Source of the DNA: Streptomyces sp. NBC_00513
GTDB taxonomy: Bacteria > Actinomycetota > Actinomycetes > Streptomycetales > Streptomycetaceae
Assembly (NCBI RefSeq): GCF_041431415.1
Contig: NZ_CP107845.1
Span: 5,704,001-5,768,000 of the forward strand
Reading direction: 5' to 3'
Length of the DNA stretch: 64,000 bases
This document shows positions 41,501 to 46,638 of the stretch, piece by piece. How positions within the stretch are numbered: the stretch's first letter is position 1; each line of letters starts with the position of its first letter. The position numbers were made by a program, and so were the translations under genes. Under the pieces are notes generated by a model. The model did no database searches. It was not told the DNA's origin and saw only the letters and a list, made by a program, of their open reading frames with translations.

Positions 41501-42208
41501 TCAGTGCGCGGCGCCGGGATCGGAGTGGCGCCAGGCGTAACGGTGTTCCGGGCGGCCCGTCTCTCCGTAGCGCAGGGCGAGGGTGACGCGACCCGTGCGG
41601 TCCAGGAGCTTGAGGTAGCGCTGGGCCGTCTGACGGCTGATGCCGGCGCGATCGGCGATCTGCTGGGTGGAGAGCGGCCCCTCGGCCGTGCGCAGCACCT
41701 GGCGGACCAGGTCGGCGGTCGGCGGCGAGTGGCCCTTGGGCAGGTCGTTCGGGGTGCCGGCCGAGGCCAGGGCGCCGAAGATGCGGTCCACTTCGGCCTG
41801 TTCCGCCTCCCCTCCGGTCTCCAGGGTGCGCCGCAGGGCGCCGTACGCCTCCAGGCGGGCCCGCAGCCCGGCGAAGGCGAACGGCTTCACCATGTACTGG
41901 AGGGCGCCGAGTCGCATGGCGGCCTGCACGGTGGCGAGGTCGCGGGCGGCCGTCACCATGATGACGTCGGTGTGGTGGCCCCGTTGGCGCAGCCGCCGGA
42001 CCAGGTCCAGGCCGTTCTCGTCGGGGAGGTAGTGGTCCAGGAGGATCAGGTCCACGTCGTGGGTGTCCAGGAACGCCAACGCCTCCGCTGCCGAGTGCGC
42101 TTGGGCGATCACCCGGAATCCGGGAACCTTCGCCACGTACGCCGCGTTGATCCGGGCAACACGCATGTCGTCGTCGACGACCAATACGTGAACCGGGGAC
42201 TCGTTCAT
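41501..42208 (-). CDS. CitB/DctR-type response regulator
   Basis: 235 aa. The receiver has VLVVDDDMRVARIN (acid pocket), LILLDHYLPDENGLD (phosphoacceptor Asp at about residue 54) and VKPFAFAGLRARLEAY (conserved Lys). The output domain near residues 165-215 contains LSTQQIADRAGISRQTAQRYL, a helix-turn-helix of the DcuR/CitB type. It overlaps its kinase gene by four bases (ATGA at 42205-42208), so both are made together. The family controls uptake of carboxylic acids; the symporter next door and citrate synthases nearby fit, but direct targets are not proven. Confidence 0.93.
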   Translation of the reverse strand: MNESPVHVLVVDDDMRVARINAAYVAKVPGFRVIAQAHSAAEALAFLDTHDVDLILLDHYLPDENGLDLVRRLRQRGHHTDVIMVTAARDLATVQAAMRLGALQYMVKPFAFAGLRARLEAYGALRRTLETGGEAEQAEVDRIFGALASAGTPNDLPKGHSPPTADLVRQVLRTAEGPLSTQQIADRAGISRQTAQRYLKLLDRTGRVTLALRYGETGRPEHRYAWRHSDPGAAH

Positions 42209-43821
42209 CGCAGGGCCTCCGGGAGCACGACGGAGAATTCCGCCCCTCCGTCCGCGCTCTCGCCGGCCCGGACGGTACCGCCCTGCCGCTCCGCGAGGCG
42301 ACGAACGAGTGCGAGGCCCAGTCCGCGTTCGCGGTGGGCCGTGGGCTGTTTCGTCGACCAGCCCTCGGTGAAGATCTCCTCGCGGCGCTCGGCGGGTACG
42401 CCGGGGCCACTGTCCCGGACCATGAGGATCGCCGTACGTCCCTCGGCGCGCAGCTCGACCTCGACCAGCGGGGCGGTCGAGCCGGCCGCCGCGTCGAGGG
42501 CGTTGTCCACCAGGTTGCCCGTGATGGTGACGAGGCCGCCGGGGTCCACCACCCGGTCGGGCAGCAGCGTGGAGGGGGCCAGGCGGAGCGGGACGCCACG
42601 CTCCGCGGCCACGGTCGTCTTGCCGACCAGGAGGGCCGCCAGCAGGGGGTCCCGGACCTTCTCGGTGACCTGCTCGGCGGTGCTGCGGTGCACCCCGACG
42701 ACCTCGGTCACGAACTCCACGGCCTCCTCGTACAGGTCGAGCTCCAGGAGACCGAGCAGGGTGTGGAGCCGGTTCGCGTGTTCGTGGTCCTGGGCGCGCA
42801 GGGCGTCGATCAGTCCGCGCGTGGAGTCCAGCTCGCGTCCGAGGTGTTCCAGTTCGGTGCGGTCCCGCAGCGTGGCGACGGCTCCGCCGTCGTCGGTGGG
42901 CATCCGGTTGGCGACCAGGACGCGGGGCCCCTGGACGGTGAGCAGGTCCCGTCCGTCGATCCGGCCCGCGAGGACGTCCGTGGTACGGCCCGCGCCGAGT
43001 ACCTCGTCCAGCGCGCGTCCGGCGACGGTGCCCGATGCGGCGGGGTCGAGGCCCAGCAGTCGGGCGGCCTCGTCGTTGACCAGCCGGATCCGTCCGTGCC
43101 GGTCGAGTGCGATCACGCCTTCGCGGATGGAGTGCAGCATCGCCTCGCGCTCCGAGAGGAGGCCGGCGATGTCGGAGAAGGCCAGGTCGCGGGTCTGTCG
43201 CTGGATGCGGCGGGAGAGCAGGTAGGCGGCGAGGGCGCCCGCGGCCAGGGCGCCGCCCGCGTAGGCGAGCAGGCCGGGGATGGCTCCCAGCAGTCGCTCG
43301 CGGACGCTGTCGTAGGCGATGCCGACGGAGACCGCGCCGACGATCTCCCCGTCGGCGGCCAGGAGCGGGACCTTGCCGCGGGCGGAGCGGCCCAGGGTGC
43401 CGTCGTCGATCTCCATGACCTCGCGGCCCGCCAAGGCGTCGCCGGGGTCGGTGGAGACGGGCAGGCCGATGCGGCTCGGGTCGGGGTGGGAGCGCCGGAT
43501 GCCCCGGAGGTCGACGACGACCACGTACTCGGCGCCGGTGGCACTGCGGATCCGTTCGGCGGCGGACTGCACGGGGCCGTCGCCATCCGGGCCCGAGTCG
43601 AGGAGGTCGGCGGCCAGCGAGGGGTCGGCGGCGGCGCTCTGGGCGATGGCCAGGGCGCGCCGCATGGCCTGGTCGTCCAGTTGCGCTCCGAGCGGCGCCA
43701 GGAAGAGGCCGGTGGCCAGGACCGCCACGCCGGCCGCGATGGCGAGCTGGGTCAGCAGGATCTGGGAGACGGCCCTTCTGGGCAGCCCGAGGCGCCGAGC
43801 GCTCATGTGGGGGAACCGCAT
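42205..43821 (-). CDS. CitA/DcuS-type sensor histidine kinase
   Basis: 538 aa. A first membrane helix (LLTQLAIAAGVAVLATGLFL) and a second (about residues 180-205, LLAYAGGALAAGALAAYLL) flank an extracytoplasmic PAS-like sensor with PVQSAAERIRSATGAEYVVV. A cytoplasmic PAS follows (LHSIREGVIALDRHGRIRLV), then a His box around DHEHANRLHTLLGLLELDL and an ATPase with NLVDNALDAAAG, GPGVPAERREEIF and GLGLALVRRLA. The architecture is that of carboxylate-sensing CitA/DcuS/DctB kinases. ATG 43821 chosen; a TTG three codons upstream is less likely. A palindromic element at 43874-43907 precedes it. Confidence 0.93.
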   Translation of the reverse strand: MRFPHMSARRLGLPRRAVSQILLTQLAIAAGVAVLATGLFLAPLGAQLDDQAMRRALAIAQSAAADPSLAADLLDSGPDGDGPVQSAAERIRSATGAEYVVVVDLRGIRRSHPDPSRIGLPVSTDPGDALAGREVMEIDDGTLGRSARGKVPLLAADGEIVGAVSVGIAYDSVRERLLGAIPGLLAYAGGALAAGALAAYLLSRRIQRQTRDLAFSDIAGLLSEREAMLHSIREGVIALDRHGRIRLVNDEAARLLGLDPAASGTVAGRALDEVLGAGRTTDVLAGRIDGRDLLTVQGPRVLVANRMPTDDGGAVATLRDRTELEHLGRELDSTRGLIDALRAQDHEHANRLHTLLGLLELDLYEEAVEFVTEVVGVHRSTAEQVTEKVRDPLLAALLVGKTTVAAERGVPLRLAPSTLLPDRVVDPGGLVTITGNLVDNALDAAAGSTAPLVEVELRAEGRTAILMVRDSGPGVPAERREEIFTEGWSTKQPTAHRERGLGLALVRRLAERQGGTVRAGESADGGAEFSVVLPEALR

Positions 43822-43873
43822 GACCAGCAACCGTAGGTCGGCTTCGGCGTAAGCGGAATTCCCCTTGCGTCAT

Positions 43874-44156: not shown

Positions 44157-45416
44157 TCACGGCATCGGCCGCGGCGGGCGGGGGCCCTCGTAGTGCCCGC
44201 TCGGCCGCATCCTCAGCGGCCGTTCCTGGTACTCCTCCAGCGCGTGCGCGATCCACCCCGCCGTCCGGGCCACCGCGAACACCGTCTCCCCGGCCTCGGC
44301 GGGCATCGCGCAGGACACGGTCAGCACCGCCAGGGCCAGGTCCACGTTGGCGTGCAGCCCGCCGCCGTGCCGGGCCATCACCGAGGCCACGTCGCGGGCC
44401 GCGCCCAGCGCCGGGCCGGCCTGGTCCAGGGCCTCCAGCCGGGCGAACAGGGCCGTGGCACGAGGATCCTCGCCGCGGTACAGCCGATGCCCCAGTCCCG
44501 GCACCCGGCGCCCCGCTCGCAGATACTCCGACACGACCGGAGCCGCCCCGCCCCGCTCCAGGACCTCGACCAGCATCCGGTGGGCGAGCCGGCCGGCGGC
44601 GCCGTGCAGCGGGCCTTCGAGCGCGCCGAGTCCGGCCGAGACCGCCGCGTACGGATGGGCCCGCGCCGACGCGGCCACCCGTACCGCCAGGGTCGAGGCC
44701 GCCAGATCGTGGTCGACCAGCAGACCGAGGGCCAGGTCCAGCACGGACAGCGCGTCCGGGTCGGGGTCCAGCGCCGTCAGCCGCGACCACAGCAGGCGGG
44801 CCAGCCGGGTGTCGCCGGCCCACCGGGCGGCGCCCTGCTCGGGCAGGGCGCCGACCAGCGTCGGGATCAGACAGCGCGCGGAGCCCAGTACGGCCTCCTC
44901 GGACAGGTCGAACCGCAGGGGATCCGCCACCGCGGCGGCGGCGACAGCCACCCGAAGCCGGTCCAGTGGTCCGCCGTGCTCGGGCAGGGCGGCCACCGCC
45001 CGCCGGGCGGCGGCCAGCGGCTCCGGGGGAGCGACGAAGCGTGCGCCGTGCTTCAGCGACCCCGTCCACAGCCACTCCGCCACCTCCTCGTAGCGGTACC
45101 GCGAGGCCAACTCGACGGCGTCCACGCCCCGGAAGTAGTAGCGGTCGGGCTCGATGAGCGTGAGCGAGGTGCGAACGGACAGCTCGCCGGCATGGCTCCC
45201 GGTGGGGCCCGCCGCCTCGCGCCGGCTCCGCCGGGCCAGCGCCTCCACCTCGGCCGCGTCGAAGCTGCTGCCGCGCCCGACCGGGTCGCGGCGACTGCCG
45301 AGCTGGCCGCGGCTGACGTACGCGTACACGGTCGCGGGCTTCACTCCGAGCAGCCGCGCCGCTTCCCGGGTGTTGATCCGGCGCGGGCCGGCCGCCTCGT
45401 CGGTCTCGGCATTCAT
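44157..45416 (-). CDS. Citrate synthase-like protein with N-terminal helix-turn-helix
   Basis: 419 aa. The N-terminal 50 residues form a MerR/excisionase-like HTH (INTREAARLLGVKPATVYAY, about residues 14-33). The rest is a citrate synthase fold: GPLHGAAG (His about 271), GLGHRLYRGEDPRA (His about 312), ANVDLALAV (Asp about 357) and RMRPSGHYEGPRP at the end, so the three catalytic positions are present. The usual FYSG after NVD is replaced by LALA. It is divergent from the citrate synthase at 45487. ATG 45416 (MNAETDEA) preferred; GTG 45425 would add three residues. It may be a regulator that senses oxaloacetate or acyl-CoA, an enzyme, or both. Confidence 0.88.
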   Translation of the reverse strand: MNAETDEAAGPRRINTREAARLLGVKPATVYAYVSRGQLGSRRDPVGRGSSFDAAEVEALARRSRREAAGPTGSHAGELSVRTSLTLIEPDRYYFRGVDAVELASRYRYEEVAEWLWTGSLKHGARFVAPPEPLAAARRAVAALPEHGGPLDRLRVAVAAAAVADPLRFDLSEEAVLGSARCLIPTLVGALPEQGAARWAGDTRLARLLWSRLTALDPDPDALSVLDLALGLLVDHDLAASTLAVRVAASARAHPYAAVSAGLGALEGPLHGAAGRLAHRMLVEVLERGGAAPVVSEYLRAGRRVPGLGHRLYRGEDPRATALFARLEALDQAGPALGAARDVASVMARHGGGLHANVDLALAVLTVSCAMPAEAGETVFAVARTAGWIAHALEEYQERPLRMRPSGHYEGPRPPRPMP

Positions 45417-45427
45417 GACGCACACCC

Positions 45428-45480
45428 TACATAGATTGATTCAATCAATATTGACAAGGATTCAATCCATCATCGATGGT
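45428..45480. promoter_or_regulatory. Divergent citrate synthase promoters with two GATTCAATC operators
   Basis: Plus strand: TTGACA (45451-45456), weaker -10 GATGGT (45475-45480), gap 18, ending 6 nt before the ATG 45487. Minus strand: TTGTCA (45452-45457), TATGTA (45428-45433), gap 18. The -35 elements overlap. ATTGATT-C-AATCAAT (45435-45449) fills the minus spacer and GGATT-C-AATCC (45458-45468) lies in the plus spacer. Their GATTCAATC cores are 21 bp apart, two helical turns. This MerR-like geometry fits control by the HTH-citrate synthase. Confidence 0.72.
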
Positions 45481-45486
45481 CAATCC

Positions 45487-46638
45487 ATGAACACCACCGT
45501 CGAAGTACCCCGCGGTCTCGCGGGAGTCGTGGTCACCGAAACCGCACTCGGTGACGTCCGAGGCCGAGAAGGCTTCTACCACTACCGCCAGTACTCGGCC
45601 GTCGAACTCGCGGAGGGCCGCACCTTCGAGGACGTGTGGCACCTGATGTTCCGCGGCGCGCTGCCCGTCGACCTCGCCGAGCGGGACGCCTTCGCCGCCG
45701 AGATCGCCCCCCTGCGCCGACTCCCCGTCGAGGTGCGCGACGCCCTGCCCGCCCTCGCCCGCGCCACCGCCCTGTCCGGGCCGCTCGCCGGTCTCCGTAC
45801 CGCGCTCTCGCTGTTGGGCGCGTCCGCCGGCTTCCGCCCGGTCTACGATCTCGACCCCGCCCGCCGGGCCGCCGACGCCCTCGCCGCCTGCGCCGCGGTG
45901 CCCACCCTGCTCACCGCCCTGCACCGGCTGGGACAGGGGCTGGAGCCGGTGGAACCGCGCGACGACCTCCCGTACGCGGCCAACTACCTCCACATGCTGA
46001 CCGGGCGCGAACCCGACCCGGTCCAGGTCCGAGCGGTGGAGCAGTACTTGATCTCCACCATCGACCACGGGTTCAACGCCTCGACCTTCACCGCCCGCGT
46101 GATCGCCTCCACCGGTGCCGATGTCGCGGCCTGCCTGACCGGGGCGATCGGGGCCCTGTCCGGGCCGCTGCACGGAGGCGCTCCGAGCCGCGCCCTGGAC
46201 ACCCTCGACGCCATCGGCACGGCCGACCGGATCCAGCCGTGGATCCGCGAACGGGTGCTCGCCGGCGAACGGATCATGGGCTTCGGGCACCCGGTCTACC
46301 GCACCGAGGACCCGCGCTCGCGGATGCTGCGGGGCATCGCCCGCCGGTTCGGCGGCCCGCTGGTCGACTTCGCCGTCGAGGTCGAACAGCAGGTGGAGGC
46401 GATCCTGGCCGAGCTCAAGCCGGGTCGGGAACTGCACACCAACGTGGAGTTCTACGCGGGCGTGGTCATGGAACTGTGCGGGCTGCCGCGCGAGATGTTC
46501 ACCCCCACCTTCTGCGCCGCCCGCGTGGTCGGCTGGAGCGCCAACATCCTCGAACAGGCCGCCGACTCGAAGATCATCCGCCCGGCCGCCCGCTACACCG
46601 GGCCGACCCCGCCCCAACCGGTCCCGGCGCTCGGCTGA
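45487..46638 (+). CDS. Citrate synthase homologue with catalytic Asp replaced by Glu
   Basis: 383 aa, normal citrate/2-methylcitrate synthase length for a short bacterial form. Catalytic His residues: [14 protein letters not shown] (His 229) and [14 protein letters not shown] (His 268). The usual catalytic Asp in NVDFYSG reads NVEFYAG here (Glu 321; codon gag at 46447-46449). C-terminal [11 protein letters not shown] keeps the substrate-binding Arg. It condenses acetyl-CoA or another acyl-CoA with oxaloacetate if active. The start is ATG 45487, probably leaderless from the divergent promoter region. Expression is likely tied to that of the HTH-citrate synthase. It could be a slow citrate synthase, a homologue with another substrate, or a partner subunit. 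Confidence 0.88.

Follow-up and report, generated by a model that had tools for sequence, protein, structure and literature searches.

A candidate operator between divergent citrate synthase genes of Streptomyces and its association with a citrate synthase carrying a helix-turn-helix

Introduction

The window analysed here is a stretch of 64,000 nt from Streptomyces sp. NBC_00513, in which 70 bp (45417-45486) separate the ATG codons of two divergent citrate synthase genes. One of the two proteins carries a helix-turn-helix (HTH), and the short gap contains palindromes. The locus thus raises the question whether a protein with the fold of a metabolic enzyme acts as a transcription factor on this gap, which genes it would control and in which direction. 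A first-pass annotation, made from the letters of the window, had proposed two divergent promoters with one palindrome inside each spacer and the HTH-citrate synthase as their binder. Comparisons within the genus Streptomyces, in other Actinomycetota and in plasmid records of further phyla were used in order to examine this proposal.

Results

Layout of the locus

The minus-strand gene, here named HTH-CS, encodes an HTH fused to a citrate synthase, as had been proposed: the Pfam models HTH_17 (32.0 bits) and Citrate_synt (208 bits) were both matched above their cut-offs of 27 bits. The ATG at 45416 as its start agrees with the length of 419 aa of the six closest database orthologues, and a protein 100% identical to the window HTH-CS is encoded in Streptomyces sp. 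WM4235 (locus L043). The plus-strand gene, CS2, consists of a Citrate_synt domain alone. The genes and the motif features of the gap are as follows.

44157..45416, minus strand: HTH-CS, HTH-citrate synthase gene, 419 aa from ATG 45416 (from open reading frame, Pfam and orthologue length)
45487..46638, plus strand: CS2, citrate synthase paralogue (Citrate_synt 361 bits; NF009005 350.3 bits, cut-off 332)
45436..45448: palindrome 1, TTGATTCAATCAA, half-sites TTGAT and ATCAA, spacer 3
45444..45455: candidate operator core, ATCAATATTGAC, half-sites ATCAA and TTGAC, spacer 2
45458..45468: palindrome 2, GGATTCAATCC, whose exact form is found mostly in close relatives

Both palindromes of the first-pass annotation were found in the gap, namely ATTGATTCAATCAAT at 45435-45449 and GGATTCAATCC at 45458-45468, with GATTCAATC cores that start at 45438 and 45459 and hence lie 21 bp apart. 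Two copies of GATTCAATC in the window compare with 0.08 expected, and none of 100 shuffles gave two; they are also the only copies in the whole 8.62-Mb genome, in which the reversed control word occurs three times. The candidate operator array spans 45436-45456, between both start codons. Its core takes the left half from palindrome 1 and the right half (TTGAC) from the -35 word of the plus gene, while the right half of palindrome 2 occupies the position at which most other gaps carry an RTCAA-like half-site.

The surroundings of the pair contain further genes. Genes for a sensor kinase resembling DcuS, CitA and MalK and for a response regulator lie at 41504-43830, near HTH-CS, which suggests a clustering of dicarboxylate or citrate sensing in this region. 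The gene from 46655 onward, after CS2, which we take to encode a CobW-type GTPase, also adjoins HTH-CS in genomes without CS2 (L125 and L126, compared by eye).

Conservation of the motifs within Streptomyces

Conservation was assessed in 98 distinct genus gaps, a set without identical gap sequences and without the loci that lack an adjacent CS2 (L005, L023, L093, L103, L111 and L113). Palindrome 1, written as TTGAN5TCAA, is present in 96 of the 98 gaps and the core RTCAAnnTTGAY in 97; the exception, L068, lacks the exact core and by eye shows GATTCAATC at its palindrome 2. The near-constant unit is ATCAA-NR-TTGAY (ATCAANRTTGAY), of which ATCAATATTGAC is the window copy, and the consensus of the genus gaps reads ATTGATTcAATCAATATTGACAg.gaTt.AgTCaA.CATGGAcaGTCgAatCAa. 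The complete array TTGA-N-(3 or 6)-N-TCAA-NN-TTGA was recovered in 96/98 genus gaps and in 15/19 upstream regions of distant actinobacterial loci; 50 rounds of dinucleotide shuffling of each set yielded no copy of it.

Among the 97 core-bearing gaps, exact palindrome 1 (TTGATTNAATCAA) occurs in 64 and exact palindrome 2 (GATTNAATC) in 18, that is in 15/36 gaps at 76% identity or above and in 3/61 below. Palindrome 1 is thus widely kept and exact palindrome 2 mostly confined to close relatives, and the design with one palindrome per promoter is not a conserved one. The paired GATTCAATC palindromes at 21 bp were also considered as the conserved operator and were rejected, with GATTNAATC-N12-GATTNAATC found in just 10 of 392 genus genomes, in all of them at this locus.

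A large regulon in the genome of the window was likewise rejected: the gap holds the only exact TTGATTNAATCAA site, and there are no sites with one mismatch. With up to two mismatches, the scan of this genome gave 20 forward matches against 5 for the control, including repeats at the chromosome ends and the second contig.

Candidate promoters and the position of the core

The overlapping -35 hexamers of the first-pass annotation are both present, and the candidate promoter words were placed as follows.

45451..45456, plus strand: candidate -35 of the plus gene, TTGACA, the first five letters of which (TTGAC) form the right half-site of the core
45475..45480, plus strand: candidate -10 of the plus gene, GATGGT, 6 bp before the ATG; the transcript is possibly leaderless
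45452..45457, minus strand: candidate -35 of the minus gene, TTGTCA (read 45457..45452)
45424..45433, minus strand: candidate -10 words of the minus gene, TATGTA (45433..45428, spacer 18) or TAGGGT (45429..45424, 7 bp before the ATG)

In both candidate promoters the -35 words are good and the -10 words weak, and a consensus scan requiring 9 of 12 matching positions found no promoter in 45300-45600. Palindrome 1 sits in the 18 bp between TTGTCA and TATGTA on the minus strand and palindrome 2 between TTGACA and GATGGT on the plus strand. Which of TATGTA and TAGGGT serves as the -10 word of the minus gene is uncertain; the CACC-C/G-TA stretch that holds TAGGGT was seen by eye next to the start codon in many listed gaps. 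For the plus gene, the hexamer exactly 18 bp past TTGACA is GACAGT (57) or GATGGT (36) in 93 of the 97 gaps. Therefore, the plus promoter keeps a constant position with respect to the operator, and the core overlies its -35 word. The distance from the operator to the start of HTH-CS varies among the 97 gaps.

Since TTGACA is the consensus -35 word and TTGAC makes up half of the core, the motif might be plain promoter DNA, an AT-rich -35 region with palindromes as by-products. This is hardly credible: no promoter consensus includes the conserved TTGAT-n-ATCAA upstream of TTGACA, shuffling either set 50 times never reproduced the array, and the sites listed at the CoA-transferase genes described below have no TTGACA at that place.

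Association of the motif with HTH-CS and rearranged loci

Of 199 genus genomes, 130 gave a match to HTH-CS (E<=1e-40; a few of the matches are fragments) and 126 a match to CS2 (E<=1e-100). When 198 genomes were cross-tabulated, 125 had both genes, 5 HTH-CS alone, 1 CS2 alone and 67 neither. Among the 130 genomes with HTH-CS, 95 contain TTGATTNAATCAA at some position, vs 0 of the 68 without, a comparison whose Fisher value overstates the evidence because related species share descent; the reversed control of TTGATTNAATCAA was found in 0/198. The exact word is absent from 35 of the 130 HTH-CS genomes, and some of the 95 carry it at the CoA-transferase gene alone. The core is rare, with about 75 listed places in about 80 Mb. 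Even so, 26 of 28 genomes or records have it at the HTH-CS gap; these were chosen for having HTH-CS and are largely the same loci as the actinobacterial and plasmid sets described below. Further copies of the core lie away from the HTH-CS gap (G402:C1:1630023, G540:C160:48542, W10:C1:845606 and others) and may be extra targets or chance occurrences.

Several loci in which the gene pair is rearranged show where the motif goes. In G032 (L130) CS2 is inverted and there are two copies of TTGATTGGATCAA, one before each gene, and in L089 the gap is enlarged with one motif copy near each gene. L093, L103 and L113 have HTH-CS without a nearby CS2 and keep the variant ATTGACTCGATCAATGTTGA beside HTH-CS. 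In L111, CS2 and the motif are both lost and HTH-CS is retained; similarly, the gaps of G013, G107, G110 and G181, which have HTH-CS and no CS2 match, contain no TTGAN5TCAA, with decayed half-sites left in G181. The loss of the gap motif from L111 and from these four genomes, in which HTH-CS stayed, argues against an obligatory control of HTH-CS over its own gene. In the reverse case, G027, which has CS2 without an HTH-CS match, no TTGAN5TCAA was found in the upstream stretch that was read.

The gap could alternatively be mainly a site of a global regulator, MtrA or GlnR, with HTH-CS being an enzyme with a vestigial HTH. In S. coelicolor, according to an excerpt of the published report, MtrA bound a TTGACTTAACTGTCCA probe from the SCO5831-SCO5832 gap and lowers both genes at late times, their expression being higher in the mtrA mutant (PMC12323332). 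GlnR represses citA and citA4 in Saccharopolyspora erythraea, as stated in an excerpt of PMC10704036. By description and by the MtrA word, SCO5831/SCO5832 is very probably the same locus as the window pair. The effect of MtrA on both genes means that the operator described here is not the only control. As the main explanation of the gap a global regulator is nevertheless improbable, given that the palindrome tracks HTH-CS within the genus (0/68 without it) and that the core recurs in Proteobacteria and Deinococcus. Moreover, the reverse complement of the MtrA word TTGACTTAACTGTCCA matches the -10 region, which lies downstream of the core, as placed via near forms in the gaps of L039 and L119.

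A family III CoA-transferase gene as second candidate target

Of the palindrome places outside the gap, 13 among the matches listed were read, and 12 of them adjoin a gene for a family III CoA-transferase (PF02515). The 13th, L154 (G079:C1:2861680), is an exact palindrome 1 away from both the gap and the CoA-transferase gene. The CoA-transferase gene is present in 118 of 198 genus genomes (E<=1e-100) and was not found at this threshold in the window's own genome.

Of the 118 genomes, 56 were inspected for sites at the start of the gene and 74 rows were placed in a tree. A site with up to two mismatches to TTGATTNAATCAA lies near the CoA-transferase start in 33 of 40 HTH-CS genomes vs 1 of 16 without HTH-CS, where six of the 40 rows (L150, L151, L153, L155, L156 and L158; four of them also in the tree) had been included for their exact palindrome. 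The palindrome is centred some 24 bp upstream of the ATG, in the interval between the expected -35 and -10 positions, and by eye no clear -35 is visible; two overlapping or tandem palindromes instead of one were seen by eye upstream of the gene in L155 and L201. The CS2-less genomes G013, G107, G110 and G181 carry the palindrome at the CoA-transferase gene with 0, 0, 0 and 1 mismatch, respectively. Among genomes without HTH-CS, the exceptions at this gene are G067, which has TTGACTGAGTCAA, and G063, which has a form with three mismatches.

In the tree of 74 CoA-transferases the association runs in the expected direction: HTH-CS and site occur together in 31 rows and are both missing in 25, with 17 rows having HTH-CS only and 1 the site only. 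The rows without a site include 20 of lower identity, 10 of which have HTH-CS, and 7 more with HTH-CS. Only 7 independent pairs lie on supported branches (mean 2.0 for and 0.2 against the association, p 0.25-1), which are too few independent contrasts for significance, and shared descent may therefore account for these sites. Altogether, the sequences point to a putative action of HTH-CS on the unlinked CoA-transferase gene in many Streptomyces.

Recurrence of the core beyond the genus

A phylum search of 296 genomes gave at least 30 loci, 23 of them distant among the matches listed, and 19 in which the HTH part was matched were kept. RTCAANNTTGAY lies upstream of the distant actinobacterial HTH-CS genes in 16/19 and the full array in 15/19, compared with maxima of 1 and 0 in 50 shuffles. 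The core is off by one base in L215 and L228 and wholly missing in L219. A citrate synthase gene is divergent from HTH-CS in 15/19 of these loci, as in the window; in L215 and L216 the neighbour begins like a LeuA-type synthase, and in L219 and L221 neither of the two was seen.

HTH-CS matches were obtained in 153 plasmid records (Deinococcus, Alpha- and Betaproteobacteria, and others). Fourteen were read, picked from 40 mostly for variety of genus and before the gaps were seen, and the core is present in 14/14 of these loci from Deinococcus and Proteobacteria. Their divergent partners are a citrate synthase (5), a CoA transferase (3), a LeuA-type 'pyruvate carboxyltransferase' (2) and a DUF2332 protein (2), and in the remaining two records, which have no gene table, the next reading frame by eye starts like a citrate synthase. 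One plasmid citrate synthase is 45% identical to CS2, and two of the three CoA transferases are 44% and 41% identical to the Streptomyces protein over nearly the full length. In Azospirillum thermophilum and Comamonas antarctica, HTH-CS stands back to back with a CoA-transferase gene of the same subfamily; as this gene is unlinked in Streptomyces but linked there, it provides the strongest independent support for a common regulator.

Two other partner types were seen beside the operator. A LeuA/homocitrate/citramalate-like gene accompanies it in L215 and L216 (actinobacterial) and in L253 and L254 (Deinococcus plasmids), a call that is based on profile scores below the cut-offs for L216 and L253, on the protein start for L215 and on annotation for L254. 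The partners of L216 and L253 share 28% identity over 194 aa only and stay below every listed NCBIfam cut-off, so they are not one orthologous partner; the LeuA-type gene may replace CS2 at the four loci. A DUF2332 protein is the divergent partner beside the same core in Pseudoroseomonas and Roseomonas (L258 and L332). By eye, the two half-sites of the core are always 2 bp apart in the phyla compared, and the outer TTGAT half-site is set off by 3 bp in Streptomyces, for the most part by 6 bp in other Actinomycetota and in Deinococcus, and for the most part by 7 bp in Proteobacteria.

These loci also bear on the possibility that the DcuS/CitA-type two-component system at 41504-43830 acts on the gap. 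The window kinase resembles DcuS/MalK, with scores below the cut-offs, and an excerpt of PMC9739823 suggests the neighbouring SCO5829/5828 system as a possible repressor of SCO5831. Yet the core is present in the 12 plasmid loci with gene tables (about 6 kb each), which have no such system beside HTH-CS, with the exception of one histidine kinase near the Azospirillum thermophilum locus. Control by this system is therefore very improbable.

Residues of the HTH-CS and CS2 proteins

The presumed recognition helix was identified by its position within the HTH.

45306..45332, minus strand: recognition helix TVYAYVSRG, residues 32-40 counted from GTG 45425

It takes the form T-(V/L)-Y-A-Y-V-S-R-G in 111 genus proteins and 19 distant ones, the single deviation being S for A35 in one distant protein. 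The plasmid loci show the variants SLYSYVSRG (Comamonas), TLYSYVSRG (Roseomonas mucosa) and TLYANVSRG (two Ensifer loci).

For the enzyme part, catalytic motif positions and residue roles were assigned on the assumption that they correspond to those of known citrate synthases. The catalytic His, His and Asp as well as His239 and Arg322 are present in 130/130 HTH-CS proteins, and Arg407 in 128/130. With these active-site residues conserved, HTH-CS gives no impression of a degenerate enzyme, and catalytic activity may persist. Its best score against the NCBIfam citrate synthase models (151.4 bits) is below the cut-off of 332, which CS2 passes with 350.3. In CS2, Glu replaces the catalytic Asp in 115/118 proteins, as it does in PDB entry 2c6x, a citrate synthase 1, and the true reaction of CS2 may not be plain citrate synthesis.

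Membership of HTH-CS in the MerR family is borderline. Its Pfam scores are 21.3 for MerR (cut-off 28.2) and 21.0 for MerR_1 (cut-off 21.6), and orthologues among the best database hits often carry PF00376 (MerR). A long spacer, 19-20 bp, is typical of MerR-type promoters; here, it is 18 bp in 93/97 CS2 promoters, as measured between inferred promoter words. If HTH-CS binds the operator, it could still activate its targets in the manner of MerR. The MerR-like HTH_17, the sub-threshold matches to the MerR models and the palindrome at the CoA-transferase gene, lying between the expected -35 and -10 with no clear -35 by eye, speak for activation, but the 18-bp spacer, the full TTGACA and the position of the core over the -35 in the CS2 promoter do not, and this direction of control is considered doubtful.

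Discussion

Proposed mechanism

Of the claims in the first-pass annotation, the one naming the HTH-citrate synthase as the binder came out strengthened: with the distribution of TTGATTNAATCAA in the genus (95/130 vs 0/68), the core upstream of distant relatives and the matching palindrome at a second gene, HTH-CS is much the best candidate. A conserved operator linked to the protein, as looked for in a transcription factor with an enzyme fold, was thus found. Whatever the sign of control, HTH-CS is likely to be a transcription factor acting through this operator, as judged from comparative sequence data. Given such action, repression is somewhat favoured, and it is the simplest reading because a half-site sits inside the -35 word of CS2.

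Under repression, the N-terminal HTH of HTH-CS would read TTGAY half-sites around the near-constant core ATCAA-NR-TTGAY. Opposed half-sites would form an array over the CS2 promoter, with one half-site inside the -35 word, and HTH-CS bound to this array would block the promoter and keep RNA polymerase off CS2, probably also off its own gene. The citrate synthase body would serve as the sensor, in which a pocket ligand (oxaloacetate, an acyl-CoA or citrate) relieves or strengthens repression. An acyl-CoA or other substrate as ligand is suggested by the conserved pocket together with the families of the partner enzymes. Acyl-CoA handling is a family trait of citrate synthases, CoA-transferases and LeuA-type synthases; the DUF2332 partners may not fit this idea.

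A more far-reaching version can be put forward tentatively, and we regard it as possible at best: HTH-CS would be a catalytically active citrate synthase, or an enzyme of closely related activity, and at the same time a DNA-binding regulator. Occupancy of its active site would set its grip on ATCAANRTTGAY operators, which in several phyla would govern interchangeable acyl-CoA enzymes, namely a Glu-bearing citrate synthase, a family III CoA-transferase and a LeuA-type condensing enzyme perhaps replacing the citrate synthase. The changing partner genes point to a shared, unnamed acyl-CoA pathway.

If HTH-CS acts in this way, the locus would connect transcription directly to the pocket of a citrate synthase, a connection that can be tested with one purified protein and the 70-bp DNA. 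All of the best 120 database hits of HTH-CS have the HTH_17 plus Citrate_synt architecture, and those with names are called citrate synthase, citrate/2-methylcitrate synthase or citrate synthase family protein. The comparison suggests a widespread, overlooked family of regulators built on a metabolic enzyme. Should these proteins be regulators, their annotation as TCA-cycle enzymes, and their treatment as such in metabolic models, would be wrong or incomplete for many bacteria.

Comparison with known systems

HTH-CS shares with the MerR and BldC-type HTH_17 regulators (BldC being an HTH_17-type regulator) the small MerR-like HTH at the N-terminus. It differs from them in that its body is a citrate synthase, its MerR and MerR_1 scores are below the cut-offs and the spacer of its target is 18 bp.

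A search of open-licence PMC papers, mostly of titles and the openings of abstracts, found no HTH-citrate synthase regulator and no operator of this kind. Within this literature, there seems to be no precedent for a citrate synthase as regulator with a conserved pocket and a single operator across phyla. The S. coelicolor genes SCO5831/SCO5832 (citA3/citA4) are likewise a citrate synthase pair with an intergenic control region; their published control is by MtrA, and the excerpt of PMC12323332 names no role of an HTH-citrate synthase or of a palindrome.

A regulator with an enzyme fold is a known concept, as described for BzdR in an excerpt of PMC3602430. Like HTH-CS, BzdR fuses a DNA-binding HTH to an enzyme fold as effector domain, but this fold is a different one, resembling shikimate kinase, and the same excerpt gives the loss of enzymatic activity as essential for regulation, whereas HTH-CS keeps the catalytic His, His and Asp. 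The citrate synthase CitA of Caulobacter has a role in cell-cycle control which, according to an excerpt of PMC7083601, is independent of its enzymatic activity; a DNA-binding head is not mentioned in that excerpt, whereas HTH-CS possesses one.
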